Of a stretch of DNA of 64,000 nucleotides, positions 5,514-42,637 are shown one piece after another. The position numbers were made by a program, and so were the translations under genes. Origin of the DNA: Lepisosteus oculatus (lineage: Eukaryota > Chordata > Actinopteri > Semionotiformes > Lepisosteidae); contig NC_090697.1 of the NCBI RefSeq assembly GCF_040954835.1, positions 3,980,501 to 4,044,500 on the forward strand, in the 5' to 3' direction. Numbering within the stretch: position 1 is the stretch's first letter; the number at the start of each line of letters is the position of its first letter. The notes beneath the pieces are model-generated. The model was not told the origin of the DNA, did not search any database, and saw only the letters and a program-made list of their open reading frames with translations.

Positions 5514-6246
5514 TAAGCTCCTAAACTATTTTTTCCAGACAAGAAAAAAGGTTTAAGCTACATTTTAATTTTAAAAGATGTATCAGTAAAGATTCCGCTG
5601 TTAGTAATAATTACGTGTTAGAATCTAAACAAATACAGCCTGCCACACCTTTCAGCACAGCACAGAGGCACAGATCTTTTCTGCCTCATTTTCTTTAAAA
5701 CAGAAATTAGAAAAGTCTTCTGGGAGACATTAAGGAAGCACTCAGTGTAGCTTTAACACTTATTGGAGATAAGGGATTTAATGCTTCATTTTGTAAAGGC
5801 TGGACCCATGGAGTTCCAGTAGTGACCAGAAAGTAATGACATTAACAGTACCTCCCAGAGGAGCACAATGCCCAGGCAGCACTGAAAGAAAGTAAGAGTG
5901 TAGGCTTGTGAGTGAAGACTATTCACATGGAACTGGCTAGAGGTGTGATGCCACTTGGGAGCTATATAATGCAGTGCTCAAATTTAAAAGAATAAGTTTA
6001 AATCAGCCATGGAAGTAGAGTTAGGTAGTATGATTTATACAGTGTATACTGTATGTTCAAAGGATATTTTCATTTGAATCAGCATTTTACTTGAACTAAT
6101 TACTGTATTACTGGTTATTACTGAAATTACTCTGACATAATGACATAGCCAAAGTGCTGAAACAAGTCTGATTGAACAAATTAGAGCTGCTCTGTCCCTG
6201 TCACAGAAAAAAATACTGAACTGAGGTTCTGTCATTTACCAAAATA

Positions 6247-6560
6247 CAGATGCATCCACTCAGAACATGCATTATTTCTTCCAACGTCAGAAAGTCGTGT
6301 GCTGCGTATCCGTATGTATTTCACTGGCCAAAGATGATCGATAGGTGGCACTTGTGGTGTGTCTGCTTCATATGGCATATTACTATGGAATTTTATAACG
6401 TATAATTTTGGTTGCTGAACATAATAATATAAGGGCTATAATGTCTCTGAACATCATTAAGAATTTTAATTTAGGAATATAAATACAGTATATCATACAT
6501 ACTGTACTGTATATGACTGGTAGTGGAAGCTAAAAAACGTACTCCACCTTCTTCATAAAC
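6247..6560 (+). mobile_element. Old copy of the long-TIR TA element (unit A)
   Basis: It begins TA-CAGATGCATCCA, close to the CAGATGCAGCCATTCAAA terminus of the element at 43658. Matching blocks follow in the same order: ATGGAATTTTA, the GCTGAACATAA region, ATTTTAATTTAGGAATATAA and TATATGACTGGT. No right terminus is found. It is shared with unit B (26576), so it is older than the duplication and well degraded. Confidence 0.6.
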
Positions 6561-7089
6561 ATTTTATACATCAATGTCTTTAACTCGGTTACTTACTGTG
6601 GTTATAAGGAAATGCTTTGACATGCTCATTCTAACTATATAAAGTTTGTATACTTTATAAAAAAACTATAATGCTTTCATCTTTTTTATGAATGTCTTAT
6701 TGACTGTATTGACTTGCTGTCAATATTGTGGTAAAAAACATGTACTTTTTAGAATCCACTTAATAGGGAATAATAACATGGAATCACATAACTAAAGAAA
6801 TTAATAATTATTTTGTATTTATTTTTTTAATGAAAAGAAAATAACAAAGACACAAATATACATATAAATAGAGGAAAAAAGACATTCACTGATGCAGAAG
6901 GGAAAGAAAAAAGAGAACTCAAATAATATTTAAATACCCTTAGAAGGCTTATAAATGAAGCCAAGGGAAAAAATAAATAATAAAAGCATCAGAGATTCTT
7001 CCATTTTTACCTCATAAACACAGATAATTGTATATAGAAAAATCTTTCTTGTTTAAAATAACATCACTCTGTTAACAGAAATAACATTT

Positions 7090-7860
7090 TTACTCAGTCC
7101 CACCTGATTGCTGTCAGGACCTGGGACAGGACAGTAGGTTTCTGAATCATAACGCATCATAGCGAATCATAACCAGCTTTCTACCAACCTCAAATCCAAG
7201 GAAAGAACAAAGTTGCTTATAAGGCAGTGCGGATTTCCTTTGCCACCTTGCTATGCAGTGATGTTCCCGAATCCAGTACTGAAAACACTCCGAGCCCATG
7301 ACCCCAGTCCTCTCCGTGAGCAAAGACTGGGGTGATCTACATGTCTGAGCTCTGCAGCGGTACCCGGCTCTGCAAGGCATTACTACTGCTCTCTAGAGGC
7401 AGTAGTTCTAGATGTATAATGCGCTGGTCTTTGGATCCAGTGACCAGCAGCCTCTGGCTAGCCTCTGCTGATCGCGCCGAAGTTCCTCTGGTCCTCCCGG
7501 ATAGACAGATGGGAAATCTCTACTCAGACCCGCAGCTGGAGTTTTTGCTCTCCATCAGGTGACCAGGCACAGATGATGGCCTCCGCAGAGCCCGCAACAC
7601 CTCTCAGCTTTCCCTGGTTAAAGTCAAGATACATGACCAGCTGTGCAAAGGCAGACATGCGGCTCTACAGGCTGTCTTCCTGGCCCTCGAGTAGCCGGGG
7701 GCTGCAGCCGGAGTCAGGCTGCCAGAGCCATTAACACATGGGCATGCCCAGCCAAGCCTTCGGGTCTGGGCTGCAGACTGGCACAGCGCATCACCCAGAT
7801 CTGCTGTGGTGAGCGCTAGCATGTAGAGAAAGTCATTGCCCTGCTTTTTTATCTAGCACT
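7090..7860 (-). other. GC-rich relic, possibly a WD40-protein retropseudogene
   Basis: The composition is clearly higher in GC than the surroundings. On the minus strand, short stretches read like WD40 blades, for example LLVTGSKDQR and IICAWSPDG, but the frame changes repeatedly. It is present in unit B at 27430-28200 with small indels. No poly-A tract is obvious on the low-coordinate side. I cannot name a parent gene. Confidence 0.3.
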
Positions 7861-8884
7861 TAATGAAAAGGTCAATGTAGAGCATGTTATTATTACTGCA
7901 AGGAGATGTTTGCCGAGATCTAGGGGTGCAAGATTCCGTGATCAAAGCGATTGCAAAGGAGTTAATACATTTTGGGTAAATTATTAATTGTCAAACAACA
8001 GTTCAGATAGACAGCATGAAACAGGCATTTAGGAAGAAAAAGAGGTAGGAGAGAAAAAAAGAGGATACAGGAAGACAGGGGAAGAGACCGAAGGAGAAGG
8101 CAAGACCTCCCCTTCCTCATCCATAAAAACCAGATTCAAGTTAAGTATTTGAAACTTAAATATTTAAAACTTAGAAACTTTGTTAAGAGAGCTATTCTGT
8201 GACTTTGATTTGTTTAAAGAATTCCTCAGTTAAACATGGCCTCCCCTGCTTAGTGAGTGCATTTTTAGAAGAGGTAGATAAGTTTCTATTCATTTTGTAG
8301 CATCCTGGATTACAGAGAGATTTTTAATCGTAGGTTGTATTGTGTCAGATTTAGAAGTCAGCTTTATCTCTTCTGTTGGCCTTTGCAGGCATTATAGAGG
8401 AGTTGAATACTTGGTATTCTGGGGCTTTCCTGGGTGGTTAGGATATACAGTAGGCTCCTGAAATGCCCTGCTTGAGTGTTTGCTAATAGCATAACGCATA
8501 TATTGTATGTTTATGTTGTGTGTGTTATTAAGTGTGTCATTGTCATTATTAATAAATGTTTGTCTAACCTGAGTTATTACTCTTTTCATCAAAGTTGCAT
8601 CAATAAAAAAAATGGAGGTGCCTCCGATTATACCAAACACTTGGATGTATTCTTGAAAAAATATTTACAAGTTGGGGGGTTATGATAACTTAGCTTTAAT
8701 CTAAGCCATAAACCTGGCTTCTACTGTATAAACTTCCAGAGATATTTTTAACAGTTTGAGGGAACATCCTACCAGGGGGAAAGTGACTCTTTTTCCAGAG
8801 GCGAGAAAGTGTTAATTTGCTCAGCTATCTCTGATATTCTCTTTTTTTGTAACCCTCTATTCGTAACAGAACAAATTTCACATA

Positions 8885-8965
8885 GATAGCACCTGAGGAA
8901 TTGAACCCAGGGTTCCTGTGCTGCAGGGGAGCAATGCTAATCAATGTACTTCAAAGGTTTGAGCC
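8885..8965 (-). repeat. tRNA-derived SINE head (degraded)
   Basis: The minus strand shows a B-box-like GGGTTCAATTCC preceded by an A-box-like TTAGCATTGCTC at tRNA-like spacing. Equivalent sequence is in unit B (29655) and partly in unit C (about 39361), so it is old. Confidence 0.5.
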
Positions 8966-9014
8966 TGGGTCATGTCACTATTCCACTGGGAACCCTGACT
9001 GGGATTCTCTAAAT

Positions 9015-10455
9015 TAGGGGTTCTCAAACTGCCAGGTGGTACGCCATATAACCCTGGATCTTTGTTAAGTGCACTGAAAAATCGGGACAGGTTTTCCTAT
9101 TTTCTATTTTAATACGTGTCGAATACACAGCCCACCACACAGCCAATCTTGTAAGCAGAGGAAAGCATAGAAATGCGTGTTACGAACATAAGTGACCAAT
9201 TGTATCTAAAAAACATATCTCCTACAAATAGGAAGGTAAGAGAACGTGCGTGGTTTTGGAGCTGAAGCTGCTATTATAACACTGGACCAATGCCAGTGTT
9301 ATAAGCACAGTAATGCATAGAAATGTGTGCTCTGACGCTGGCAATCGTGTGAGCACAGGAATGCGTGATAGATAACAGAAAAATATTTAAGAACTGTTCT
9401 AGGTTAATTTGAGAAAAATACACCGAGCGTCTCTGTGTTTTAGCTCCCATGCGCATGAAATAAAAACTTCTTTTAACTTCTGAGACGGGATTCCTGAAAC
9501 GGAAACGGGGAAAAATACAAGCTTGTGGATTGCTAAAGCAGGTAAGCCCCACACTATTTTTGAAGAACCTTATTTACCATTGACAAAAGAGCTGACACGT
9601 ATTGTCTGTGGAGAAAAAGCTGCTAAACACCTCGACTTGCTGCCCCCCTTCCCCTGAAAGACACAGTCACTCATAGAATTATTGAAATGGCGGATGATAT
9701 CAAAAGTAAGCTGATAGAGCGCGTCAAGATGAGCAGCTGCTTTTCACTGCAATTAGACGAGTCTGTAGATGCCTTTGATTTGGCCAATTTGCTCGTTTAC
9801 GTTAGATACGAGTTTGAGAGCATGTCCCATAAGGACTTTCTGTTCTGTAAGCCGCTACCAACAGAAACTACAGGAGAGCCCATATTTCAGCTTCTGGATG
9901 AATTCAACGAAGAGAATGGCATCAACTTGAAAAATTGCGTTGGAGTTGTACAGACGGTGCTAGAGCAATGACAAGCCGACACAGCTGTGTAGTTGCACGA
10001 ATTAGAGAGGTTGCTCCAGAAATGAATGGACTATTTGCAACATCCACCACGAGAACTTTGCCTTCAAGAACATGCCTGACGATTTTAAATCTGTTAGACT
10101 CTGTTGTGAATTGTATCAAGGCTCGACCAATGAATTCATATCTGCTTTGCTCGACTAAACAGACTCACCCCTCTCACTGAAATGGTGCTTTTTTATTGTT
10201 TATTTTTAATTGTTGTTGTTCCTGTTTTTTTTCTTTCTGTAAAGCACTTTGATAAGCCACCTTTAAAGGTGCTATATCAAATAAAGTTTATTATGATATT
10301 TATTATATGTGTATGTAAGTGTGTGTGCACATGCACACTCATGTTAGTCATTGAGAATTTCTGGGTTTCCTATGAGAAAATGACTTTCAGGTGGTACTTG
10401 GATGCTTTGGTTTGTTCAGGGGTGGTACTTGGTCCAAAAAGTTTGAGAACCACTG
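9015..10455 (+). mobile_element. hAT-Charlie-like DNA transposon, internally deleted (unit A)
   Basis: The ends are near-perfect inverted repeats of the Charlie type: TAGGGGTTCTCAAACT on the left and GTTTGAGAACCACTG on the right. Imperfect 8-bp flanking duplications are seen (CTCTAAAT and CTTTAATA). Inside are pieces of a ZBED/SCAND3-type hAT transposase. Residues of 9687-9971 include KMSSCFSLQLDES, and 9935-10180 includes CTDGARAMTSRHS and VVARIREVAPEMN in another frame. The BED finger and the C-terminal dimerisation region are missing. A LINE-type 3' tail (10230-10300) is nested within. It is shared with unit B and absent from unit C. Confidence 0.85.
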
Positions 10456-10910
10456 CTTTAATATGTAGAAACAGGGGTCACTTCAGGGTTCTTGTAAGCA
10501 AGAGGTGCTGTTGATAAGGAAGGCCTCTCTTCTAATGCAGATCTATACATCAGCAGTTAACCTCTACATGGGGATGTATTACCTATTATGTGTTAAAAGA
10601 TAAATGGTTAGAATTTCAATAGTGGAATGTACTGTAGAGCTAATGTTCTACAATGGAGAAAAGCTACTCATCTGTGTACAGAAAGTTGCTTTTGTGCTTT
10701 AGTGTTCCTATCCTACTTCTTTCTTTTCTAGACGTCTTTATTAAATAAAATAAAATATTTAATTGAAGGTTAACTGCCTTTTTAAAATACAGGTCTAATC
10801 CATTGTTAAAATAATACAGTTGGAACAGCAAAGAGCTGCTAGACAGGCACTGTATCTCTTTGTCTCATTGTCTGATTACAATGCTGGATTATTCATAATT
10901 ATGTGAATGG

Positions 10911-10990
10911 TCTTGACCAATAGCTTTTTGAAATTTCCCTTGACATCCACACAGTGTTGAACACAACAAAGTCCCAGTGCTGTATAAAAG
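10911..10990 (+). promoter_or_regulatory. T2a promoter: CCAAT and TATA boxes
   Basis: A CCAAT box at 10917-10921 precedes a TATA-like TGTATAAAAG at 10981-10990. Both lie within a block about 150 bp long that is conserved in units B and C, where the TATA reads TATATAAAAG. A half-site resembling the Olf/EBF motif (TTTCCCTTGA) sits between them. Transcription would start about 30 bp downstream, near 11010. Confidence 0.65.
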
Positions 10991-11009
10991 CCTGTATTCT
11001 AACAACAAT

Positions 11010-12039
11010 CAACAAAGAAAGAGAAAGCAAGTTTCTGCAAGATGTCTTTATGAGGAGCCTGTTAAATAGTGAGTATTGTTTTATGATTTCACAAATCATT
11101 GTGTTTGAGTTCATAATTAATTACTGTGTAAGAGTTACCTCAACTAATTATATATATACACATTCAATATAAACATAGGTTAATAGGTAAATATCAATGG
11201 GCTGTTTTTACTTTGAATCTTCTGTACTGTTAGCCTATCAGGCAAGAGGATTATTCTGTTATTCATTTAAAGCTTTCAGTCAATAAATGTGGAATAAAAA
11301 AAAACTTTATGGATTGAGTCAATTAGTAATTGTGAGTATCCCAAATGTTAACCTGATCTCTGACAAAGGCAGTATTGAAGTGGTAATTTGAGTTTGTTAT
11401 ATAAATATAACAAGTTGTATCCCCTCTGTAAACACGCAGTGCATTTCGAAGGCAATTTATTGATATTGTACTTCAAACAGGATTCTATTTCAAACAAATG
11501 ATTTATAGTTTATAGTATTTACAGTAAGATGAATGAAAGTTATAGATTCCTAGTTTAATTTATTTAAACAAACACATTTTAAACATTTTGTGAAAGACTA
11601 CGTTAAAAATTCAATCATCTTCCCGTCCCCTGAGGAACTGCAATTTAATTGCAAACCAGAAATCATTAAGCATCAACAGTCTAATACAGTGTATTAAAGC
11701 ACAGGATTCTACTGCCATTTTAAGATTACACTTCAGAAATTTGAAGTTTAACATCACTTAAAGATGTGAAACACAATATATTCCTTTGAAACGTTTTAAA
11801 AAGTATGTACAATAAGATTTATCATTTATCCCAATAAAACTTATCCAGCATTTTCGTATTTCACATTGTTTAGGGAATTTAAGACACCCAATAGAGCATT
11901 TTTCACTATATTAAGATTTGTTTTGTTTTAACAATACATGCAGGCAACAGGAAATATATTTGTAATAATCCCATATGATTTCAAGTAAACATCCAAATAT
12001 CTGGCAAATGTTTAATATGATTCTCTTTCTTCCTTACAG
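11010..12039 (+). other. T2a 5' UTR exon 1 and intron
   Basis: Exon 1 is inferred to end at 11068, with donor GTGAGT at 11069. The intron ends with the tract and acceptor TTCTTCCTTACAG at 12039. Donor, acceptor and exon are conserved in all three T2 copies. Exon 1 contains a conserved four-codon upstream ORF (ATG TCT TTA TGA). The rest of the untranslated leader is 12040-12114. Confidence 0.6.
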
Positions 12040-12114
12040 AAGAAATTAAAAATAGGTTTCATTGAAACACGTGGCTTCTGTTTCCATCAGCCTCATTTTG
12101 TGAATCTCAGCATT

Positions 12115-13146
12115 ATGAATTCAACAGTATTGGAGATCGACACAATAGAATACTGCTTTGAGGAGATGAACAAATCCTGTATAAAAGGGCACAGAACTGT
12201 TGGTATGAAGGTAGCTATGTATTTTGTGTTTGGTCTTACAGTCCTTATTACAATTGGTGGAAATCTTATTGTGATTATTTCCATCTCTCACTTCAAGCAG
12301 CTTCACTCACCAAATAACTTTCTTGTTCTTTCACTGGCAACCATTGATTTTCTCTTAGGTTTAATTGTTCTCCCATTTAGCATGGTCAGAATGGTTGAAA
12401 CTTGTTGGTATTTGGGATCATTCTTTTGCAGACTTCATACATCTATTGACATGTTGCTTTCCACTGCCTCCATTTTCCATTTATGTTTTATTGCTATTGA
12501 TCAGTATTATGCAGTATGTGAGCCTCTTCATTATACAAACAAAATCAGCATCAGAGTGTCCTGTGTGTTTATTATTATTGGTTGGATTTTGCCAGCATTA
12601 TACACTTTTGGAATAATTTACACCAAATCTAACGACCAAGGCCTAGAAGATGTGGTTGCCATACTATCATGTGAGGGTGGTTGTTTACTTGTTTTTAATA
12701 AGTTATGGGCATTACTGGATTCAGTTATTTTTTTTGCTCCCTGTTTTGCCATGATTGGAATATATGTGCACATTTTCCGTGTAGCTAGAAACCAAGCAAG
12801 AATGATACAAATTATGGAAAATAGAATATTTTCGGTGGACGACAGTAAAAAGAAAACTCAACAGAACAGGGAACATAAAGCTGCTAAGACACTAGGTATA
12901 GTTATGGGTGTCTTTCTAGTCTGCTGGGTCCCTTACTTCACAGATACAATGATAGATGTCTATCTCAATTTTGCAACTCCTTCAGTCGTGTTTGATGGCC
13001 TAATATGGTTAGGCTATGTAAATTCAACTTTTAATCCATTAATATATGCTTTTTTCTATCCATGGTTTCGAGAAGCACTGAAACTTATTCTTACATGTAA
13101 AATATTTCACCGTAATTCATCTAGAATTAAACTTTTGTCTGAATAA
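12115..13146 (+). CDS. Trace amine-associated receptor T2a (DQY variant)
   Basis: This is a 343-residue TAAR starting MNSTVLEID. Visible are N-glycosylation at N2, N-terminal cysteines at 14 and 22, C3.25 (105), D3.32 (112), two ECL2 cysteines (186, 190), D5.43 (202, seven residues before P5.50), CWVPY in TM6 and [16 protein letters not shown] in TM7. Paired D3.32 and D5.43 match the diamine-type site proposed for some mammalian TAARs. The start is ATG 12115, because the longer frame upstream opens only with GTG. Unlike T2b and T2c, the DRY motif reads DQY: codon CAG at 12502-12504 (residue 130) replaces CGG, a CpG-type transition. The receptor should fold and reach the membrane, but G-protein coupling may be altered. 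Confidence 0.9.
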   Translation: MNSTVLEIDTIEYCFEEMNKSCIKGHRTVGMKVAMYFVFGLTVLITIGGNLIVIISISHFKQLHSPNNFLVLSLATIDFLLGLIVLPFSMVRMVETCWYLGSFFCRLHTSIDMLLSTASIFHLCFIAIDQYYAVCEPLHYTNKISIRVSCVFIIIGWILPALYTFGIIYTKSNDQGLEDVVAILSCEGGCLLVFNKLWALLDSVIFFAPCFAMIGIYVHIFRVARNQARMIQIMENRIFSVDDSKKKTQQNREHKAAKTLGIVMGVFLVCWVPYFTDTMIDVYLNFATPSVVFDGLIWLGYVNSTFNPLIYAFFYPWFREALKLILTCKIFHRNSSRIKLLSE

Positions 13147-13689
13147 AGTTGTCGAAATGTATAGCTGGGATAGTACACATTGAATAATTTCAATTCATCA
13201 TTATAGATGTGTTTTTGTTTATTTAAATAAAATGTTTAAAACCAGCATCTGCTTTCATTACTTAAAGTATGTCACTTTTTATTGTGATATTAAATCTTAA
13301 TAAGCCTTTATCGAACTGGTAAATTTCAAACACTAAAAAAACTTCAGGAATGTCTGATTAAGAAATTTAATGAGATACTCCAATATATTTGGAAAAAGAT
13401 GTGCAGAATTTGAATATAACAGAGATATAACTCGTGGTTGGCTGTAAGAAAAAGGAAGAATTAATTGTGACACTACAGTCAGTAATAAAAAAAACAGGCA
13501 AGTAATCTATGGTACAGGTACATTTATTATACTGCAAGAACATTTCATTTTTATATGAAAACTGTGTTCAATATTAATAAAAAATCCCTTTATTTCTGAT
13601 GTCTTACACATAGATGAGAATAAAAATCTTCATGTTTACTCAATTTATTATTCAGTTCCTGTTTTCCTTTAATGATGGTTCATCATTGT

Positions 13690-15580
13690 TTCTTTTAACC
13701 CATCCAGTTTGTACTACTGCTTTCTGATCTCCTGTTCGTCGGGCAGATGCCTCAGCTGCTTTTCTGGAATTCTAAGCCCATTCGCACCCCTTTCTTTGGT
13801 TCTCGACACCATTCCGCTCCAAAGTCGAATAGCTCTTTCAGCCTGGGGGCTCAGCAACAGGATTCCACTCCAAAACCGAGATACCCGAGTGTCCTCATTT
13901 TTCTTGGGTGTTCAGCACAGGATTCCAATCCGAAACTGATGCTCCCCAATTCCTGTCAAAGGGCTGATTTGCCAGGGTTGTGATCTTTGGGCTCTATACT
14001 GACACCCTCACTTCTCGCCGCTAAAGCTGCTCTGACTCCTGTCCAAGACACTACGTCACCCTGCACTGCAGTGCCCTGTTCCAGTCTGTTCTGTCTCCAG
14101 TCCAGGACTTCACGTTACCCTGCACTGCAGTGCTCTGTTCCAGTCTGCTCTGACTGCAGTCTGTGACTTCAAGCCTCTCTGCACTGCAGATCTCTTTTCT
14201 AGGTTGCCTCTTCTCCAGAACTTTATTCTGTACTCCTGTCCCTGACTGTTTGCAGCTTCTGGACAACACCCTAGAATCCTTGACTCTTCTCTGCTGGTTC
14301 TTTTCAGTTCTGTCCTGCCCACAAGAGGAAACTTCTGTTGTCCAGGACCCCAGGGTTCTCCCCATGCAGCTGTTTGTCCTCTCCCTAGCCTAGCCCCATT
14401 CTTGCTCTTTTGGGTCCTGCCATAGTAGTTTAGTTTTTTTTCTGTTATCGTTCCTGCTGCCTTCTCAGCTATTCTTGAAGTGACTTCTTCTCCTGACTCA
14501 GGGCTCTTTATCCTCACCTTTTTCTTTTGAGCTGTCTGGGTAACTTTTCTTTGCTATCATTTTTCCCAGTCTCCTTTCAGCGTTCCAGCAGAACCTTCTG
14601 TTTCTTTCTTAGGGAGTCAAGCATCCTGTTTCCACTTCGATGCCTGAGAGCATCTCTCTGTTAGCCTGAGCCCCTTAAGGATTCCTAGTTGTCAGGCTCT
14701 GACAGGGACTGCCCCCTGCTGCTGTGATGACAAAGGGACTCTCAGAATTGAAAGAGAACTTTTGAAAGGCCTATTGCCTCCCACCTGACGCAGCTCTCAG
14801 GAGTGCCAGGAGTGTGGGTTGGCAAACACAAGGGTCGACGCGGTGAGCAGTGAAACGAATAAGTGGGGACTAGAATATGAAACTGCAGCATCAGGAGATG
14901 CAGAGAGCAGCCAAAGAGCTAAAGCTGGCGTGTTGGGTGACGCTGGAGCTGATTCTGCTGCGCCGGTGAGGCTGAATGCCGGCTTGGATTTGAAGCTGCT
15001 ATATGTTTGATGCTGAGAGCTAAGGCTGCTGCACAGAGCGAAGCTCTATCCTAATGCCGAAATAGCTGCCAATCACAGTCCGCTAGTCAGAGACAGAGAA
15101 CCTTGGGTATGGGTGCAACTGAATGGAGAGTCTCCTGAAAAGGGAGCTGGATGGATCTGAAGCACTGGCTTAAGGCTGCAGAGACTGCTGTGCAAAGCGA
15201 GGGCTGGCTTGGTGTGCCTGGTGACGCTGGACCTGAGGCTGGTGCGCTGGGCAATGCTGAGGCTGAAAACTGCTGCACAGAGTGAAGAACTGGCTTAAAG
15301 CCAAAACTGCAAACACAATAAGCCGGTCTGAAACATGAGGGCCGAATAAGAAGGGAGCCAGGCGGAGTTAAAGGGCTGTCTTGAGGCAGACAATTGGGGT
15401 GGAAAAAAAGGAGCCTCAGGTGAAACCGAATAGCGAGCCTCTTGAAAAAGGGGGACCAAAGGGGTTTGCAAGACAGGCTCGGCTGCAACCTCTGCACAGA
15501 GTTAAGTGCTGTCTTGCTCAGCGGAGATATGTGGAGAGCAGCTTGGGTTTAAGTAGAAAACCAGGAATTGAATACTTAGT
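13690..15580. repeat. GC-rich unclassified repeat tract (unit A)
   Basis: The sequence shifts abruptly from AT-rich to pyrimidine- and GC-rich. It holds internally repetitive blocks but no sustained conserved ORF. Bases up to about 15008 are collinear with unit B (37320-38849). Beyond that, degenerate GCTGCACAGAG-type blocks recur to about 15550. It may be the remains of a retroelement, but no diagnostic protein is visible. Confidence 0.5.
14027..14203. repeat. 59-bp minisatellite, about three units
   Basis: Two units of 59 bp (14027-14085, 14086-14144) and a diverged third share the core CCCTGCACTGCAGTG and TGTTCCAGTCTG. Unit B keeps only the last unit near 38010. Confidence 0.8.
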
Positions 15581-15614
15581 AGAACATTTCTAATTAACAT
15601 TGATATTAAAAAGA

Positions 15615-15840
15615 TAATTAATAATAATTGCTTACACTTATATAGCACTTCTCTGGACGCTACCACTCAGCGCTTTACAGAAAATGGGGTCTCCCCTCCA
15701 CCACCACCAGTGTGCAGCCCCACCTGGATGATGAGGTGGCAGCCATAGATTATTGGGAGACCATGATTGGCAAAGGCCAGAGGGAAATTTGGCCAGGACA
15801 CTGAGGTGATCCCCTGGGATTATTAATGAACACAGAGAGC
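15615..15840 (-). repeat. 5S-derived repeat family, 3' portion
   Basis: It matches the block at 50772 onward (CCTCCACCACCACCAGTGTG, GATTGGCAAAGGCCAGAGGG, GGAAATTTGGCCAGGACA). It begins, on the minus-strand 3' side, with an AT tract and AGTGCTATATAAGTG. The 5S-like head is lacking here, so it is 5'-truncated. Confidence 0.65.
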
Positions 15841-16109
15841 AGACAAATAAAGCAAATAAAAAATGTCTAAACAAAATAAAACAAAGTCTCTCAATAAACT
15901 TTTTAAATCCAATCCTGGTGTCCAACCATGTTTCATTTACCGATACAATACTGCAATACACATCAATGAAACTGCTGCTACCTGTGTTTATCATACATTT
16001 CTACAGGATTTGTAGATACTATATACAGCTGTCATGCAGAAATAGAGGCTACAAACAGTTTACTAAAATCAGGTGCCATTGATGATTCATTGGTCCTTTG
16101 TCCTGAGTG

Positions 16110-17420
16110 AACTCAAAAATGCTACATTGGTGTCAGAAGCGGGCAGGATGGACAACCCGTGGCAGATTCTAGCAGACTCTGTCAAGCGCCGCCTGACCCT
16201 GTGCAGGAGGAGCTCGCCCCGCACCCAAAGTCTGTGATGGCCCTCTGCTCCCTGTGGGAGGCCTTGGAGGTAAGGGATGGGGTGCTGCACTGGGGGTGGT
16301 GGGTACCCTCCATCGGCAAGATCTGGTGGCAGCTGATGGTGCCACAGTTGCTCAGGGGGCTGTGCTCCAAGGGGTGCACGGCCAGCCGGGCGTGGGACAT
16401 TTCGGCTGTAAGAAAACCCTGCAGCGTCTCTAAGGCCACTTTTATTGGGGTCTGTCCCACGGACATGGAGTAGTACTGCTGAACGTGTGCGGTGTGCGTG
16501 GCGCAGAAGGGTCCCCCCGGGCGCTCTCAGGCCCCCCTCCAACAACACCAAGTGGGGGCTCCCATGGAGCATGTGGGGGTGGATATTTTGGGCCCATTTC
16601 CGTGCACTGAGGCTGGGAACCACTACGTCCTGGTGGCAATGGAGTATTTCACAAAGTGGCAGGAGGCCTATGCCCTCCCAGACCAGAGTGCCTCCACAGT
16701 GGCCAATTCCCTACTGGAGGGGATGTTTGCCAGGCTAGGGGTGCCAGAGGATTTACACTGTGACCAGGGACGTAGCTTCGAGTCCCAGGTCTTTGCCAGA
16801 GGGTGCCAGCGCCTGGGGTTATCTAAGACGTGGACCACCCCGCTGCATCCCCAGAGCAACGGGTTGGTGGAGTGGTTTAATCGGACACTCGTCACCCAGC
16901 TGGCTACCCTGGTGTCCCGGCACCAGCGGGACTGGGACAGTCATCTCCCCCTTGCCCTCTGGGCATATGGGGCCGTGGTCCAGGAATCTACCAGGTGCAC
17001 CCCAGCCTCACTCATGCTGAGCCGGGAAATGCGAACCTGTTCTTTGGGCCCCCTGGCCGGAGACGTGTCGGCACCGCCAGCTGGACTGGACAACGAGTGG
17101 GACCTGCGACAGTGGATGCAGCGAGTGGACAGCTTTGCCCGAACCCACCTGACTCAGGCGGGAGTCTGGCAGAAACGGCACTACGACCTGCGCTGCAGGG
17201 GGCCTGCCTTCCAGCCCTGGGACTAGGTTTGGGTACAGCCCGCACCGCCGTAAAGGCCTCAGCCTTAAGCTGGCGCCGTCGTGGGAGGTGCCCACTGAGG
17301 TCCTTTTGGTGGTGGGCGATTTCTGCTACCGGGTCCGGTTGCGAACACGGGGGAGAGTGGCGGTCCTGCACCTAGACTGCCTGGCACCCTACCGGGTCCG
17401 GGAGGAGGACCCTGGCGGGG
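16110..17420 (+). mobile_element. Gypsy-type LTR retrotransposon fossil
   Basis: The left part shows the leader-like TGGTGTCAGAAGCGGG followed by a gag-start-like segment. The right part (about 16492-17226) is an integrase core of the Ty3/Gypsy family, with the VDILGPF, CDQGRSFES and NGLVEWFNRTL blocks holding the catalytic acidic residues. Protease, reverse transcriptase and both LTRs are not seen. It is clearly broken, with several breaks and a large internal loss. A fragment of the same family lies on the minus strand at 39033-39358. Confidence 0.85.
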
Positions 17421-17425
17421 AGGCT

Positions 17426-17505
17426 AACCTTTGTTATGCATGACTGCAGACAATAAATGTGTAAAATATTAATATTGTGTGTTTCTTATTTAAAACTGCT
17501 AAAGT
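17426..17505 (+). repeat. Orphan copy of unit A 3519-3596
   Basis: It shares GCTAACCTTTGTTATG, AATAAATGTGTAAA and TTTAAAACTGCTAAA in order with 3519-3596 and 24391-24470. Neither flank continues the match: the Gypsy fossil lies left and the long-TIR element right. Confidence 0.7.
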
Positions 17506-17507
17506 TA

Positions 17508-18415
17508 CAGATGCAGCCATTCAAAACAAGCGGGCGATACCGCATTATTTTGCAGTGCACTTTACGCAGTCTACCGCGAGTTACCGTAAATTCTCCTATA
17601 GTACCGCAAGTAAAATAATAGTATCCGGAATTTCCGCAAGGTGGAGCTAGTAAAGTTCAACCTCTCATGTTTGAGCTGTCGCCATCAAAGTCTTTAACGA
17701 AGATATTACTAAAAGTATTAATAATGAATGACCTTGGACAAGCTGTAAACTGAAAGTATTGCCCTGGTCCACATTCTTTTTTTCATTAACCATCTTTGTA
17801 AAAGTAACACCACAGCATTTTGCAATCACACATTTGTTTCCAATCATGCAAAGTACAGTACAGAATCGCGTATTTAAAGAAATTAATAACGATATAAGTA
17901 TATTCATGTACAGCAACACAAGAATTGTACATGCTGTACGATGTCTGTTGATAATGTTTGTAGGGCTTTTTCAACACTGCTCATGTGACCTTGCTGGTGG
18001 TGCTGTGGGTTAGGTTCCCGACTACCACATCACATGTTGGGTGTTCACCCACATCACATGTTGGGTGTTCGAATCCAAGGTTCCACATGCTGGAACCTTG
18101 ACTTTTTTTTTTAACAAACATTTCTTTGAAAAAATAAAACGTTTCCCTGGCTCAGAGATTAAATTAAACTTTACTCGCACCAAACAAATTTATATTTCTA
18201 AATATCACAACAGGATCGAATTTAAGTCATTTTTATAACAATGAATAGTCACCTATGCGTTACAATATAAACATTTATATTGATTTAAATCACGTTTAAA
18301 TTGCCTTTATTTAAAACCCATAAATAAAGCCGATACTGTTTAGACTTTTAATTATTTAAAACTGTATTACAGCAGCACAATGGACAATGCAATGTAAATC
18401 GCTATCTTTGACTTC
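17508..18415 (+). mobile_element. Long-TIR TA element, right-truncated copy
   Basis: It begins TA-CAGATGCAGCCATTCAAA. Bases 17508-17870 match the reverse complement of 45710-46073, and 17930-18410 match 44690-45340 directly, as expected if the family has long inverted termini. It contains a tRNA-like stretch with a good B box (GTTCGAATCC, about 18068) and a 24-bp tandem duplication (ACATCACATGTTGGGTGTTC plus four bases). No transposase ORF is seen. Confidence 0.7.
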
Positions 18416-18446
18416 TGCGTAATAATGTTCACCTCTCTGTCCAGCA

Positions 18447-18545
18447 AATTAACAATAGTAATAATAATTAACTTTATTGTATATGGCGCCTTTAAAGGTG
18501 GCTCCTCAAAGCACTTTACAGGATAAAAACAATAACAACAATACT
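18447..18545 (-). repeat. LINE 3' tail
   Basis: A (TTATT)n tract followed on the minus strand by the same AAAGTGCTTTGAGGAGCCAC and CTTTAAAGGCGCC tail as the LINE at 4967-5513. It is severely 5'-truncated. Confidence 0.65.
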
Positions 18546-18559
18546 GTTAGGCTGGGCAA

Positions 18560-21309
18560 ACGATTTTTTTAAAAAAGAAATACAAAATGAGATATAGTGA
18601 TGTGTTCCGGCTTAGACATTAACGAAGAGCATAACACGCTCTGGCTTTCCCATCTACTGTATACCGATACACTGCAAGTACAACCCCCCTCTCTGCTGGC
18701 TGTGACAAATAAAACTGGTTTCACAGGTATTTTCAAAGTAGAAGGGGGTGAGATTTCCAGCGAAAGACACCTCCCCCCATCCAAAACCAAGGAAGTACAG
18801 TACTTACTAGTTAAGAAAGCTAGGCTCCTCAATGAAATCGCTTTAACATGCTAATGCGTTTGTGTAACAGTCCGGGCGTGGCAAGCTTCTAATGTCAACC
18901 CGACTACGGCGAAAGGAACCCTTCTTTCATTGGAAGACAATGAAAATATTATAGCCCTAAATGAATTAATAGCAAACATGGTTTACATAAAAGACATTTT
19001 CCAAGAAAGTTTAGCCTTTGTCACTAATGAAACCACTAAATAAAGACATAAATATAGAAATCTTAAGGTTTTTAAAATACATGACTTTGCTAAAATGTAT
19101 TTAAAAATAAAAATGATTACAACCGCCAGCGGAGAGAGAGAACAGGGGAGGGGTGTTGGTTTTGCATAAGGGGCGGGGCTATGGAAATGATGTCTGTTTG
19201 GGAATGTGGAGTTACATGTTCTGGCTGTTTGTGAATTATCGTTGTTGAGTATGGAGTGTTGAGGTATTGATTTTGTGTAATGCTTTATGTTGAAAATTGA
19301 CGTGGGTTTTGTTTATGATAAAGAGGATAAAGGTACACTACAGGTACACTTTCATACAGGTCATACAGGTACACTTTCACATTACATAAATCCCTGTCCT
19401 TCCCCCCAAGTCCCAGGAGTTAACAATATCCCAGACCAGATATCTCCCAATATCCCAGACAGGGTTCCATCTATCCCTTTATTCCTGGGGCAGGCATCAC
19501 AAGCCCCGTTGCTGGTCTGCTCAGTGCCCTATCACTGCCTGATGAGTGCACCACGTTATTTTAAAAATATATATTACTGTCATTAGGACCAAAAGGTTTT
19601 ATTCAACCAGTTTAAATTGGTGTCTGGAAAATACCCAGCACAATCTCTTCTATGCAATCAGAAACTTCATTTTTGACATGATCACAATGCAACAGAGTGA
19701 TAAAGTGAATATTCAGAATATGCAGTTTCCTACAGTGACTTGTTGTAATAAAAGCCAAAAAATGTGTAAAGCAAAAGTGAAGTGAAATTTGAAGATAGAT
19801 GCTGTGGTTCTACTGAAAATTAATTTGTTGTTTCAAAGCAACATAAATGCCTGACATCATATAAAATACTTTTTTATTGTATATGTTAAGATATGTTTTA
19901 CATTTAGGAAAATGTATCAGAAATCTCAGTGTAAAACTTTGACATTAATAATTAGATTTTGGCATGTCACTACTACAGTCAAGTTCAACAACAAAAGATA
20001 AAGAAACATAGTCCCTCATTGTGCTTACAAGAGAGTTAAAAATATACTTTTGGGAGGCATCAAACAAATGGCTGTCAACACGTCAGACCACTGTGGGTAT
20101 TAGCTGTTACTGGAGGTGAGAGTATAAATGTTTGATAAACAAAATGTTCTTAATAAATTCAAGCTATAATGAAACATTGTAAGTAATGTGTAATACTACC
20201 ACTTCCATTCATATTTAATGTAAATCTAGTTTATGTGTAAAATCTTCAAGATAGCTTTCAGATATAATATTACATACTTTTTGTTTTTACAATTACTGTT
20301 TATTGTGGAAACAAGGTAGGTAACTAGCTAGAAAATTAATGTATGGGCTTTATTTGCAAAGGAAACGAGACAACATTGCATTCAGAATGCAAAAAAATGA
20401 AATTGTTATCAGATCTTAAACAAGATTTAACATTAATTTTTAACAGTAAAAACTGAAGACAGTTTCAACAATTGTTTGGCCTCTGGTAAAATACACCGAC
20501 AAATGAGTTTGTTCTTGTCTATAAGTATGAGTGCTTGTAAATGTGTGTTGCAGACATTTGTAAAATGAATAAATGTAAATGTATTTCTTTATTTTGCCAT
20601 TGTTAGATATTGTTTGAATGCAGTTCCTTGTAAAACTTGGTACTGGGATGCTGAGGGAGTAAAAACATTGTTCAATTTTCACTGCAGTCTATAGATTAGG
20701 TTAGTTTCTTTGCATCTCTGAGTACATTTCTTTCTCTTCTGAAATTAAATTGCTATCTAGTTTGATGACACAGATCGGTAATTGTGATAGAAGTACTTCT
20801 ACATCTTTATTCATGTATTTGAATATGAATATGCTTAAATTGTAGGTTACAATATACTTTAAGTACTTTAGAATAATAGCAAAAAGTCTGTTTTAAAAAA
20901 AGAAAATTAAAGTAATAACTCTGAAATATACCAAGTAATGTTTTTTCATATGTTGTGTTCTCTTAGCAAAAAGAATACATATTGTGTTGGAAGTGTGGTG
21001 AAAAAGAATGATCAATTTATTTCTCCCTGTTGTCTCTTAATCAAAGTGCTTTCAAAGTGCTTTTACTTTATAGTTGAAATAATATACAGAGAAAGAATAT
21101 ATGTTTATACTGTATAGTATATGTACTTTAATTATAATAAGAATATAAATGTTACCTTGCTTTAAAAAGTTTTTGAAAAATTGAATTGAAAAAAAGATCA
21201 TTACACTTAATGCATTGTACCTATTAATGCGAGTGACTTAAGGAAAGCAAACGAATGTATAGGATACAGCACTTAATTTAATTTGTGACCAAGCAAGCTT
21301 CACACTTGT
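18560..21309. other. Intergenic, no gene seen
   Basis: AT-rich single-copy-looking sequence between units A and B. It includes a short imperfect tandem repeat (TACAGGTACACTTTCA units, 19333-19385) and many TACTGTA-type words. I find no receptor remnant, conserved ORF or RNA gene. Confidence 0.6.
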
Positions 21310-21994
21310 GACAGACTACAATAATGTTTTTAATCAGCACAGGGAACAGACTGAAAACTTACAGTACACAATGTACTACTATTATTACTTATATATTTCC
21401 ATGCATTTCTTATGTTCTTGACCACATATTTGTACCCTATGTATTTAAAGGTTGTAGAGTATTTTTTATTTAGAGCATAATTGATAAAGAAAATGTACTC
21501 TGATTCTACATGAGAATATCCACTATTATAACAGTTTTCACTGTTATTGTAAAGTTTAGCTTGAGTGATGAGACTATCACCTTTAAGAAATATTTTTAAA
21601 CACAATCTTTAAATACTAATGTGAAATATTTATCAATCAAATCAAATGTCTCATTGTCATGTATTCATTATCACTAACATAATTTGCTCCTCTCTTTTTT
21701 ACAGCAACCTACAGTAGACATACTGTAAATCTGGATTATTTTTTTGTCTGGAACTAAAATAGTTAACATTTCACTGAGATTAACTGAGAATTGTGTTTAT
21801 GAATAAAAAAAAAAAATAACCCAGTGCAGTGAATAGAGACTTTGCACTGCAGTGTACTGTACAAACACAAAGATATGTTGTTTAAATATACAATTTACTA
21901 TGGTAAACATTATTTAAAAATGCAAGGGTAAATCAAATCTTTGTCTTTTGTGTTTATGGAATTTCTATTAGATCACGGACTGAAGAGATTCATC

Positions 21995-23026
21995 ATGAAT
22001 TCTACAAATGAGGAGATGGAGTACTGTTTCCAGCATGTCAAAGGATCCTGCCTCAAAGCACGCCGGCTGGCAGCTATTAAAGGCGCTATATACACATTTG
22101 TATTGGGAACAATCTTAGTTACAGTGTGTGGAAATTTAATGGTCATTATTTCAATTGCTCACTTCAAACAGCTTCATTCTCCAACTAATTTCCTCATCCT
22201 GTCTTTAGGATGTGTTGACTGTCTTTTAGGCATTCTTGTAATGCCATACAGCATGGTAAGATCTGTGGAAACCTGCTGGTACTTTGGGGACTTGTTTTGT
22301 AAAATACATTCAAGTCTTGACATGACCATTTCAGTAGCATCTATTTTACACCTAAATTGCATTGCTGTTGATAGATACTTTGCTATATGTAATCCTTTAC
22401 GGTACCAAAACATAATCACTACATTGGTTGTAGCCATTTTTATTGGCATTGTTTGGCTTTATTCCCTGCTGTTTGGTTTCGGATTGGTATTCTTTAAAGG
22501 AAGGTTAGCAAGCACTGATGAGCTGATCATTTCCAACTCTTGTGTGGGCTCATGTTTTATACAGTTTGATAAACATTGGGCAGTTCTGGTACCATTACTA
22601 GTTTTTTTTCTTCCAGCAGTAGTGATGATTTCTCTTTATGTGAAGATTTTAATTGTTGCCAGTAGGCAGGCAAAAGTAATAAAAGAAATATCAGGGACAG
22701 TTGTTTCTCAGAATGGCAATAAAAACAAAATAAAAGCAAACAGGGAGAGGAAAGCTGTAAAAACTCTGAGTATCGTAATGGGAATATATCTGCTCTGTTA
22801 TGTGCCATTTTCTGTTACTACTGTTACTGATTTGTTCTTGATTTTTTCTCCACCTGTGGTTATATTTGATATCCTTATATGGTTGGGCTACTTCAATTCT
22901 ACATGCAATCCCATAATTTATGCATTTTTTTACCCTTGGTTTCAGAAGGCATTCAAAATAATTATAACAGGGAATGTCTTTCATTTTGGTTCTTCATCCA
23001 TAAATCTCTTTTCAGATAAATATTAA
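21995..23026 (+). CDS. Trace amine-associated receptor T1b
   Basis: This is a 343-residue TAAR starting MNSTNEEMEYCFQ. It has N-terminal cysteines 11 and 19, D3.32 (109), DRY (126-128), the lysine/arginine-rich third loop and [16 protein letters not shown] in TM7, and it ends LFSDKY. It is the intact sister of T1a, differing by a handful of substitutions plus the N-terminal 27-bp difference. TM5 has no Asp near P5.50 (VPLLVFFLP), so only the classical D3.32 amine contact is expected. TM6 carries LLCYVP instead of the usual CWxP. ATG 21995 is chosen by alignment with the other paralogs; ATG 21956 is in frame 13 codons upstream with a weaker context. A strong splice acceptor upstream (21703-21704) suggests a spliced 5' UTR. 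Confidence 0.92.
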   Translation: MNSTNEEMEYCFQHVKGSCLKARRLAAIKGAIYTFVLGTILVTVCGNLMVIISIAHFKQLHSPTNFLILSLGCVDCLLGILVMPYSMVRSVETCWYFGDLFCKIHSSLDMTISVASILHLNCIAVDRYFAICNPLRYQNIITTLVVAIFIGIVWLYSLLFGFGLVFFKGRLASTDELIISNSCVGSCFIQFDKHWAVLVPLLVFFLPAVVMISLYVKILIVASRQAKVIKEISGTVVSQNGNKNKIKANRERKAVKTLSIVMGIYLLCYVPFSVTTVTDLFLIFSPPVVIFDILIWLGYFNSTCNPIIYAFFYPWFQKAFKIIITGNVFHFGSSSINLFSDKY

Positions 23027-23269
23027 TAGATAATTCTAAAGTTGCTAACATGATCCCATAATTCTAGAAAACGTAGGCACAGTTTCAAACTTTCCATGAA
23101 CTACAAATTGTTTCATTATTCAACACTACTTTTTAACCTTAACAAACACTTAAGAATACCCTTTCATAGGAACATAGGTTTCATAGGTTTATTTTAGAAA
23201 TAATTTGTTGAGAGCTATTTTTTTTCACAACAAATTAATCAATATGATTCCACATGTCATACTGTAGCT

Positions 23270-23559
23270 GATAAAAGGGAAAAAAAGGCTGCAAAGACAT
23301 TAGGTATCGTAATGGCAGTTTTCCTGCTCTGTTGTTTGCCGTTTTTTGTCACTGTTATTATTGATCCTTTCACTAATTTTTCTACACCTTTTATTGTACT
23401 GGATACCCTCATGTGGTTAGGCTACTTTAATTCTGCCTGCAATCCCATGAGTTATGGCTTTTTTATCCCTGGTTTCAGAAATCCTTTAAAATAATCATAA
23501 TAGGGAAGATTTTCCATGTTGGTTCTTCATCACTAAATCTCTTCACAGACAAACATTAA
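23270..23559 (+). pseudogene. TAAR pseudogene fragment, TM6 to C-terminus (unit B)
   Basis: Sister of the fossil at 2400-2689, with the same missing 5' part and the same frameshift after TM7. It differs by very few bases (for example STPFIVLD for STHFIVLD). Shared lesions show that it died before the duplication. Confidence 0.88.
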
Positions 23560-34754: not shown

Positions 34755-35705
34755 ACAAAGAAAGAGAAAACACATTTTCTGCAAGATGTCTTTATGAGGA
34801 GCCTGTTAAATAGTAAGTATTGTTTTATGATTTCACAATTCATTGTGTTTGAGTTCATGATATATTAGTGTGTAAGAGTTACCTCAATTAATTATATATA
34901 CACATTCAATATAAACATAGGTTAATAGGTAAATATCAATGGGCTGTTTTTACTCTGAATCTTCTGTACAAAAGAGGAGTATTTTGTTATTCATTTAAAG
35001 CTTTCAGTCAATAAATGTGGAACAAAAAAACTTTATGGATAGAGTCAATTTAGTAATTGTGAGTATCCCAAATGTTAACCTGATCTCTGACAAAGGCAGT
35101 ATTGAAGTGGTAATTTGAGTTTGTTATATAAATATAACAAGTTGTATCCCCTCTGTAAACACGCAGTGCAATTCAAAAGCAATTTATTGATATTGTACAT
35201 TACTTCAAACAGGATTCTATTTCAAACAAATGATTTATAGTTTATAGTATTTACAGTATGATGAATTAGAGTTATAGTTTCCTAGTTTAATTAATTTAAA
35301 CAAACATTTTAAATATTTTGTGAAAGACTACATTAAAAAATCAATCATCTTCCCTTCCTCTGAGGAACTGCAATTAAATTTCGAACCAGAGATCAACAGT
35401 CTAATACAATGTATTAAAGCACAGTATTCTACTGGCATTTTAAGGTTATACTTCATAAGTTTGAATTTTAACTTTACTAAAAGATACGAAACACAATATA
35501 TTCTCTTAAAATGTTTTAAAAAGTGTGTACAATATGATTTATCATTTATCCCAATAAAACATTTCACTATATTAAGTTTTTTTTTCTTTCAACCATACTT
35601 GCAGGCAACAGGAAATATGATATTTGTAATAATCCCATATGATTTCAAGTAAAAATCCAAATATCTTTGACAAATGTTTAATTTGGTTCTCTTTCTTCTT
35701 TGCAG
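34755..35705 (+). other. T2b 5' UTR exon 1 and intron
   Basis: Exon 1 is inferred to end at 34812 before donor GTAAGT. The acceptor TTCTTCTTTGCAG ends at 35705. The same small upstream ORF as in T2a is present. Confidence 0.6.
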
Positions 35706-35780
35706 AAGTAATTAAAAATAGGTTTCATTGAAACACGTGGCTTCTGTTTCTATCAGCCTCATTTTGTGAATCTCAGCATT

Positions 35781-36812
35781 ATGAATTCAACATTATTGGA
35801 GATCGACACAATAGAATACTGCTTTGAGGACATGAACAAATCCTGTATAAAAGAGCACAGAACTGTTGGTATGAAGGTAGCTATGTATTTTGTGTTTGGT
35901 CTTACAGTCATTTTCACAATTGGTGGAAATCTTGTAGTGATTATTTCCATCTCTCACTTCAAGCAGCTTCACTCACCAAATAACTTTCTTGTTCTTTCAC
36001 TGGCAACCATTGATTTTCTCTTAGGTTTAATTGTTCTCCCATTTAGCATGGTTAGAATAGTTGAAACTTGTTGGTATTTGGGATCATTCTTTTGCAGACT
36101 TCATACATCTATTGACATTTTGCTTTGCACTGCCTCCATTTTCCATTTATGTTTTATCGCTCTTGATCGGTATTATGCAGTATGTGAGCCTCTTCATTAT
36201 GCAAACAAAATCAGCATCAGAGTGTCCTGTGTGTTTATTACTATTGGTTGGATATTGCCAGCGTTATACAGTTTTGGAATAATTTACACCAAATCTAACG
36301 ACAAAGGCCTAGAGGATGTTGCTGCCATACTATCATGTGAGGGTGGTTGTTTACTTATTTTCAATAAGTTATGGGCATTACTGGATGCAGTTACTTTTTT
36401 TGTTCCCTGTTTTGCCATGATTGGAATATATGCGCACATTTTCAGTGTAGCTAGAAACCAAGCAAGAATGATACAAATTATGGAAAATAGAATATTTTCG
36501 GTGGACGACAGTAAAAAGAAAACTCAACAGAACAGGGAACATAAAGCTGCTAAGACACTAGGTATAGTTATGGGTGTCTTTCTAATCTGCTGGGTCCCTT
36601 ACTTCACAGATACAATGATAGACGTCTATCTCAATTTTGCAACTCCTTCAGTTGTTTTTGATGGCCTAATATGGTTGGGCTATGTAAATTCGACTTTTAA
36701 TCCATTAATATATGCTTTGTTCTATCCATGGTTTCGAAAAGCACTGAAACTTATTATTACATGTAAAATATTTCACCGTAATTCATCTAGAATTAAACTT
36801 TTGTCTGAATAA
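35781..36812 (+). CDS. Trace amine-associated receptor T2b
   Basis: This is a 343-residue TAAR starting MNSTLLEID. Landmarks are N-terminal cysteines 14 and 22, C3.25 (105), D3.32 (112), intact DRY (129-131), D5.43 (202), CWVPY in TM6 and NSTFNPLIYALFYPWF in TM7. The D3.32/D5.43 pair suggests a ligand with two amines or an inverted binding pose; this rests on hand alignment to P5.50. The start is ATG 35781, since the in-frame extension to 35766 opens only with GTG. No missing key residue was noted, so this is the best-preserved T2 gene with T2c. A spliced 5' UTR and TATA promoter lie upstream. Confidence 0.93.
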   Translation: MNSTLLEIDTIEYCFEDMNKSCIKEHRTVGMKVAMYFVFGLTVIFTIGGNLVVIISISHFKQLHSPNNFLVLSLATIDFLLGLIVLPFSMVRIVETCWYLGSFFCRLHTSIDILLCTASIFHLCFIALDRYYAVCEPLHYANKISIRVSCVFITIGWILPALYSFGIIYTKSNDKGLEDVAAILSCEGGCLLIFNKLWALLDAVTFFVPCFAMIGIYAHIFSVARNQARMIQIMENRIFSVDDSKKKTQQNREHKAAKTLGIVMGVFLICWVPYFTDTMIDVYLNFATPSVVFDGLIWLGYVNSTFNPLIYALFYPWFRKALKLIITCKIFHRNSSRIKLLSE

Positions 36813-41530: not shown

Positions 41531-41605
41531 AAGTAATTTAAAATAGGTTTCATTGAAACACGTGGCTTCTGTTTCTATCAGCCTCATTTTGTGAATCTCA
41601 GCATT

Positions 41606-42637
41606 ATGAATTCAACATTATCGGAGATTGACACAGTAGAATACTGCTTTGAGGACATGAACAAATCCTGTATAAAAGAGCACAGAACTGTTGGTATGAA
41701 GGTAGCTATGTATTTTGTGTTTGGTCTTACAGTCCTTATTACAATTGGTGGAAATCTTGTTGTGATTATTTCCATCTCTCACTTCAAGCAGCTTCACTCA
41801 CCAAATAACTTTCTTGTTCTTTCACTGGCAACCATTGATTTTCTCTTAGGTTTAATTGTTCTCCCATTTAGCATGGTCAGAATGGTTGAAACTTGTTGGT
41901 ATTTGGGATCATTCTTTTGCAGACTTCATACATCTTTTGATAATTTACTGTGCACTGCCTCCATTTTCCATTTATGTTTTATCGCTATTGATCGGTATTA
42001 TGCAGTATGTGAGCCTCTTCACTATGCAAACAAAATCAGCATCAGAGTGTCTTGTGTGTTTATTATTATCGGTTGGATATTGCCAGTGATATACAGTTTT
42101 GGAATGATTTACACCAAATCTAACGACCAAGGCCTAGAAGATATGGTTGCCATACTGTCATGTGAGGGTGGTTGTTTACTTGTTTTTAATAAGTTATGGG
42201 CATTACTGGATGCAGTTACTTTTTTTGTTCCCTGTTTTGCCATGATTGGAATATATGCGCACATTTTCAGTGTAGCTAGAAACCAAGCAAGAATGATACA
42301 AATTATGGAAAATAGAATATTTTCAGTGGACAACAGTAAAAAAAGAACTCAACAGAACAGGGAACATAAAGCTGCTAAGACACTAGGTATAGTTATGGGT
42401 GTCTTTCTAATCTGCTGGGTCCCTTACTTCACTGATGAAACGATAGACGTCTATCTCAATTTTGCAACTCCTTCGGTCGTGTTTGATAGCTTAATATGGT
42501 TGGGCTATTTAAATTCGACTTTTAATCCATTAATATATGCTTTGTTCTATCCATGGTTTCGAAAAGCACTGAAACTTATTGTTACATGTAAAATATTTCA
42601 CCGTAATTCATCTAGAATTAAACTTTTGTCTGAATGA
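41606..42637 (+). CDS. Trace amine-associated receptor T2c
   Basis: This is a 343-residue TAAR starting MNSTLSEIDTVEYCF. It has cysteines 14 and 22, C3.25, D3.32 (112), DRY (129-131), D5.43 (202), the CWVPY motif and NSTFNPLIYALFYPWF. Differences specific to this copy cluster in TM3 (TSFDNLLCT), TM4 (LPVIYSFGM) and the TM6-ECL3 region (TDETIDVY). These are ligand-pocket or pocket-rim positions, so the ligand range may differ from T2b. The start is ATG 41606; the upstream in-frame codon is GTG. The stop codon is TGA, where T2a and T2b have TAA. Confidence 0.93.
   Translation: MNSTLSEIDTVEYCFEDMNKSCIKEHRTVGMKVAMYFVFGLTVLITIGGNLVVIISISHFKQLHSPNNFLVLSLATIDFLLGLIVLPFSMVRMVETCWYLGSFFCRLHTSFDNLLCTASIFHLCFIAIDRYYAVCEPLHYANKISIRVSCVFIIIGWILPVIYSFGMIYTKSNDQGLEDMVAILSCEGGCLLVFNKLWALLDAVTFFVPCFAMIGIYAHIFSVARNQARMIQIMENRIFSVDNSKKRTQQNREHKAAKTLGIVMGVFLICWVPYFTDETIDVYLNFATPSVVFDSLIWLGYLNSTFNPLIYALFYPWFRKALKLIVTCKIFHRNSSRIKLLSE

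Follow-up and report, generated by a model that had tools for sequence, protein, structure and literature searches.

A Lepisosteus oculatus TAAR gene with DQY in place of DRY: a candidate signalling-impaired tandem duplicate

Can a chemoreceptor gene whose reading frame is fully open nevertheless have lost the ability to signal? The question is raised by T2a, one of seven full-length TAAR frames in the window (the whole stretch of 64,000 nucleotides analysed here, C2:3980501-4044500 of the 1.2-Gb assembly of Lepisosteus oculatus). The DRY motif of this receptor has become DQY, and we ask below when and how the change arose, what else has changed in the gene and what has probably become of its signalling.

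Glutamine at position 3.50 of T2a

The features needed at this point are as follows.

12115..13146, + strand: T2a, an uninterrupted TAAR coding frame of 343 amino acids and a stop
12499..12507, + strand: DQY replacing DRY, residues 129-131 (3.49-3.51), at the cytoplasmic end of TM3
12502..12504, + strand: Gln130 (3.50), codon CAG; the other T2 copies, namely T2b, T2c and, outside the window, L002 and L003, have CGG
35781..36812, + strand: T2b, a paralogue with DRY (GAT CGG TAT)
41606..42637, + strand: T2c, a paralogue with DRY (GAT CGG TAT)

T2a is a class A GPCR according to its match to Pfam 7tm_1 (PF00001; 177.7 bits, cut-off 30.5), a profile that the other six full-length frames of the window match as well. 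The TAAR TM7 signature NSxxNPxx[Y/H]xxxYxWF, as defined in the available part of PMC4786312, is found in T2a and overall in 64 of the 75 full-length frames read. The top 14 PDB sequences for T2a are all TAARs or TAAR fusion constructs (best E value 1.7e-114), the best matches being TAAR13e, d, c and a in that order. These zebrafish TAAR13 receptors (PDB 9m40, 9m0x, 9m2s and 9m3s) are the solved structures closest to T2a in sequence, and they differ from it in that their three aligned rows read DRH, with the arginine kept, and in that their TM5 is one residue longer. TM5 is one residue shorter before Pro5.50 in seven of the 75 full-length TAARs (T2a, T2b, T2c, L002, L003 and two further genes, L006 and L067), a shortening that may move a nearby aspartate in the ligand pocket. 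Among the best-scoring candidates, the TAAR cluster on C2 spans about 3.72 to 4.60 Mb and one more TAAR lies on C1. A repeated genome search with a distant TAAR query added only short fragments among the matches listed, with no further full-length locus in the C2 cluster found among them.

A preliminary description of the window had reported DQY at 12499-12507 of T2a and CGG in T2b and T2c. Both observations are borne out: T2a reads GAT CAG TAT, with CAG as codon 130, and both paralogues read GAT CGG TAT. Elsewhere in the window the Arg3.50 codon is CGC in T3, CGT in T4 and AGA in T1a and T1b. Position 3.50 was then surveyed in 81 TAAR frames and fragments, comprising the seven in the window, L002, L003, L006 and 71 fetched loci, with several short pseudogene pieces left out. 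Arginine occurs in 79 of them and glutamine in T2a, and in the remaining one (L050) the segment is not covered; Gln3.50 of T2a is unique in the TAAR set read. Six of the 81 sequences are shorter than 330 amino acids, and all five of these that cover the motif keep the arginine. The odorant receptors of the same genome, at least 138 in number (138 scored out of 542 candidates), served as a yardstick, and the 49 that were read (the 30 best-scoring and 19 others on C13) all have arginine at 3.50. Lacking Arg3.50, T2a departs from D/E-R-Y, which is a hallmark of class A GPCRs and not a requirement for membership. A different pair of rare changes at switch positions is seen in L006 (C2:4324093-4325115), a full-length TAAR with Y-R-Y replacing D-R-Y and alanine at 5.50.

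Age and mutational origin of the change

The gene lies in one of two tandem units.

5894..23174, + strand: tandem unit with T2a and T1b, 97.5% identical over a 17.4-kb alignment to the unit with L002 and T1a about 21.3 kb upstream

The T2 copy nearest to T2a is L002 (C2:3971326), outside the window and about 21.3 kb upstream, whose protein is 98% identical to that of T2a. The protein of L003, a second copy just beyond the window, is 94% identical. Both copies read DRY with CGG. Since L002 keeps CGG in the sister tandem unit, the R-to-Q change of T2a is younger than the tandem duplication. Lys320Glu, near the C-terminus, seems T2a-specific inside the window, yet it is common to L002 and L003 and is therefore no part of the R-to-Q event.

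Other features of the two units and their surroundings can be described alongside. T1a (657-1694) has 27 nt fewer than T1b near position 720, in frame, and with changes beside this gap it lacks both N-terminal cysteines of T1b; the paired units thus hold a second in-frame difference that may be disabling. TAAR pseudogene fragments covering approximately residues 235-345 lie 3' of T1a (2355-2686) and 3' of T1b (23225-23556) and were copied with the tandem unit. Between the TAAR genes, 16087-17226 and 30159-33014 hold retroelement-like frames (integrase-like and reverse-transcriptase-like, named by eye).

The preliminary description had regarded the substitution as the expected product of CpG deamination, and CGG to CAG is indeed a G-to-A transition at a CpG. 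Taking the L002 coding sequence as a proxy for the ancestor, nine CpGs are present, one of them within codon 130. Between the two tandem units, transitions occur at 27 of 558 CpG positions versus 93 of 6181 other C/G positions and are thus 3.2 times commoner at CpG (unpolarised counts). The Arg3.50 codon is CGN in 70 of the 74 full-length TAARs that keep the arginine, CGN making up 36% of all arginine codons there, and the mean CpG observed/expected ratio of TAAR frames is 0.27. In the odorant receptors of the same genome, CGN encodes Arg3.50 in 29 of the 49 read among the at least 138. The codon usage suggests that the most constrained arginine of TAARs likely sits on a mutation hotspot. As a single substitution, Gln3.50 is sufficiently explained by mutation of a mutable site in one gene among the 75 full-length ones. 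Conversion as the source of the glutamine codon was considered and rejected, since CAG at 3.50 occurs in none of the other TAAR codons among the 80 read.

Conservation and constraint in the rest of T2a

The motifs and residues that T2a keeps include the following.

12448..12450, + strand: Asp112 (3.32), kept
12763..12765, + strand: Tyr217 (5.58), kept; tyrosine in 74 of the 75 full-length TAARs
12871..12873, + strand: Glu253 (6.30), ionic-lock partner of Arg3.50, kept
13033..13047, + strand: NPLIY (NPxxY, 7.49-7.53), kept

We take Asp112 to be the amine-binding aspartate and Tyr217 to be the active-state partner of Arg3.50. CWxP is also kept. Of the columns in the alignment of 75 full-length TAAR frames, 56 are at least 96% conserved; the only one of these at which T2a differs is position 3.50, and T2b, T2c, L002 and L003 match all 56. 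The judgement of the preliminary description that the remainder of the receptor is intact agrees with the open frame and with the other 55 of the 56 conserved columns being unchanged. Across the 75 genes, 49 match at all of these columns, 16 depart at one and 10 at two to six. A single departure is common (26 of 75 genes have at least one), and what is unusual in T2a is its place. A TAAR pseudogene is defined in the available text of PMC4786312 by a premature stop or a frameshift; neither is found in the T2a frame, where 343 amino acids are open and the TM motifs are kept, and for this reason T2a is not classed as a classical pseudogene.

Seven coding differences, six of them nonsynonymous, separate T2a from L002. 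With L003 as outgroup, L002 equals L003 at all seven sites, which places seven changes on T2a and none on L002, a count in which exchange between L003 and L002 could mask changes of the latter. Among the six amino-acid changes is Val204, a residue that T2b and T2c have as well, so that exchange between copies, and not a fresh mutation, may account for it. In about 2.5 kb of flank there are 12 changes on T2a and 6 on L002. The 7:0 asymmetry has a two-sided P of 0.016 taken alone and a Fisher P of 0.14 against the 12:6 of the flank. The coding rate of the T2a lineage (0.0068) is not below the flank rate (0.0049), and the 5' sequences of T2a and L002 differ by 2 substitutions in 979 aligned sites. 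In other comparisons coding divergence is lower than flank divergence (T2a/T2b 0.040 versus 0.064-0.068; T1a/T1b 0.015 versus 0.021-0.025).

Comparison of the flanks of T2a (11723-13632), T2b (35443-37290) and T2c (41214-43147) revealed that the upstream flank of T2a is closer to T2c (0.045 versus 0.100) and its downstream flank closer to T2b (0.059 versus 0.150). These mosaic flanks probably reflect past exchange between T2 copies, and with such exchange probable, caution is due in interpreting the 7:0 count and the dN/dS values given next.

The dN/dS branch test that the preliminary description had called for was run with our own GY94-type script, in which CpG rates are not modelled. In the model of five copies, omega on the T2a tip is 1.97 versus 0.52 elsewhere. 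T2a is consistent with neutrality (omega = 1 on its tip is not rejected, P = 0.50), but its omega is not significantly above that of the other branches (P = 0.18). For the five T2 copies together, omega = 1 is rejected (P = 0.014). A test with the three window copies only (omega 0.97 for T2a versus 0.36, P = 0.08) is superseded, as its T2a branch includes changes common to L002 and L003 such as Lys320Glu. Trees with L003 beside T2b or T2c were rejected, being 31-32 log units worse than (T2a,L002),L003,(T2b,T2c). The data fit relaxed constraint on T2a without proving it, seven changes being too few.

Probable impaired coupling and its alternatives

In class A receptors, Arg3.50 at rest pairs with Asp3.49 and Glu6.30, and in the active state it pairs with Tyr5.58 and the C-terminus of the G protein; glutamine is uncharged and shorter than arginine. 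The partner residues of Arg3.50 are unchanged in T2a. We propose that a CpG transition from CGG to CAG after the tandem duplication swapped Arg3.50 for glutamine. Without the arginine, T2a would be unable to maintain contact with Tyr5.58 and the G-protein C-terminus in the active state, or with Asp3.49 and Glu6.30 at rest. Its signalling in response to odours, through Gs/Golf, would be lost or strongly reduced, a loss made tolerable by the near-identical copy L002, and the gene would be drifting towards a pseudogene, still without a stop codon. In view of the role of Arg3.50 and the precedents from odorant receptors, T2a is most likely uncoupled or weak, a state tolerated since L002 remains. 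Our preferred reading, which we hold with slightly better than even confidence, is that T2a arose by recent duplication and is impaired in its coupling, as an early missense pseudogene that is hypomorphic or signalling-dead. The preliminary description had named a decoy, a receptor with altered coupling and an early pseudogene. The last of these is weakly favoured by a change that is private and recent and by seven changes on T2a, six of them nonsynonymous; no finding here speaks for a kept decoy.

The precedents come from the mammalian 'dRy' odorant receptors (Raimondi et al. 2017, PMC5630595, available in part), which resemble T2a in having lost Arg3.50 in an intact chemoreceptor frame, at a CpG codon, and in belonging to a multigene family with redundancy; the types listed there include R-to-Q (OR13A1 R140Q), the change of T2a. 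According to the same text, no other position of the proteome has as many variants in healthy people as Arg3.50 of odorant receptors, which is rich in CG codons, and PMC7866472 also singles out position 3.50 of human odorant receptors. T2a has in common with such missense-inactivated chemoreceptors the loss of Arg3.50 from an intact frame and a CpG arginine codon as the source, all four other T2 copies having CGG. It differs from the population variants of PMC5630595, as far as that source goes, in being a fish TAAR and an assembly state that follows a datable tandem duplication. The enrichment of arginine loss is reported there, in the part at hand, for mammals and not for other vertebrates, which T2a, as one gene, does not contradict. 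In ligand screens 1 of 1089 tests of odorant receptors without the DRY arginine was positive versus 102 of 8815 with it, figures to which the accessible text of PMC5630595 adds that surface expression was uncontrolled and that OR1G1 seems to signal differently. In odorant receptors, DRY mutations hamper coupling to the G protein and eliminate the rise in cAMP, as stated in PMC8394594. Class A receptors without the motif exist (PTGDR, with ECW), and V2R R137C/L is constitutively active (PMC4814114, in part). The outcome of Arg3.50 mutations is not uniform (PMC9822836, in part) and includes constitutive activity, uncoupling and altered folding (sections of PMC4814114 and PMC9822836).

Within TAARs, the human variants of TA1R, TA5R and TA9R (PMC9822836, in part) are, like T2a, substitutions of Arg3.50. 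They were collected from databases, and the residues mentioned are C, S, H, L, G, P, T and K, without the Q of T2a. A literature search for R3.50Q with the DRY motif and GPCR found nothing, and one for TAAR and the DRY motif (PMC4415300 and PMC9822836 included) had among the papers listed none on loss of the DRY arginine in a fish TAAR, judged by title and the start of the abstract.

Gln3.50 could instead be a segregating allele of the sequenced animal, other individuals having arginine at T2a, in which case the mechanism would be the same and not a property of the gene. A CpG site, a recent origin and the description of such a state for human odorant receptors (OR13A1 R140Q being named in the text of PMC5630595 at hand) speak for it, but no second T2a copy on another contig was found among the matches listed from this one assembly, and we regard it as unlikely. 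Alternatively, T2a with Gln3.50 may couple to Gs/Golf well enough to work, as the unchanged state of its other highly conserved columns would allow and as the varied outcome of Arg3.50 mutations (PMC9822836, in part) permits. Against such tolerance stand the arginine in 79 of the 80 TAAR residues read, despite CpG mutation steadily producing others, and the nearly always negative screens of odorant receptors without it (PMC5630595, in part); we find it improbable.

Equally improbable in our estimate is a kept, altered function, with T2a as a decoy, an arrestin-biased or a constitutively desensitised receptor under selection. The frame is intact, Asp3.32 is retained and the 5' sequence, so close to that of L002, implies that expression may be kept; yet the codon model detected no purifying selection on the T2a tip, and none of the 80 residues read belongs to a second TAAR with the same change. 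The narrower version, in which duplication gave rise to a non-signalling TAAR, uncoupled from the G protein, that continues to bind amines and is retained for a role as a decoy or through arrestin only, we consider slightly less probable again. An error of a single base in calling or assembly, conceivable for one substitution in one assembly, is very improbable given that T2a differs from L002 at six further sites across the frame, which marks it as a real separate copy, and that mutations of this type are common.

Returning to the preferred reading of a young duplicate with impaired coupling, T2a carries a real and recent substitution of an ordinary type, in a family rich in tandem copies, and is probably not a new kind of receptor. 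It adds a TAAR case, arisen after duplication, to the loss of the DRY arginine known from mammalian odorant receptors. With L002 it forms a natural test pair, two proteins 98% identical, with differences at 3.50 and at five further residues. Chemoreceptors (for TAARs, the available part of PMC4786312) are scored as intact unless they carry a stop or a frameshift, and T2a would pass as functional though it is probably non-signalling; it is a caution for counts of 'intact' chemoreceptors. Given the prevalence of CGN at 3.50 in TAARs that keep the arginine, decay after tandem duplication may begin with loss of the DRY arginine.
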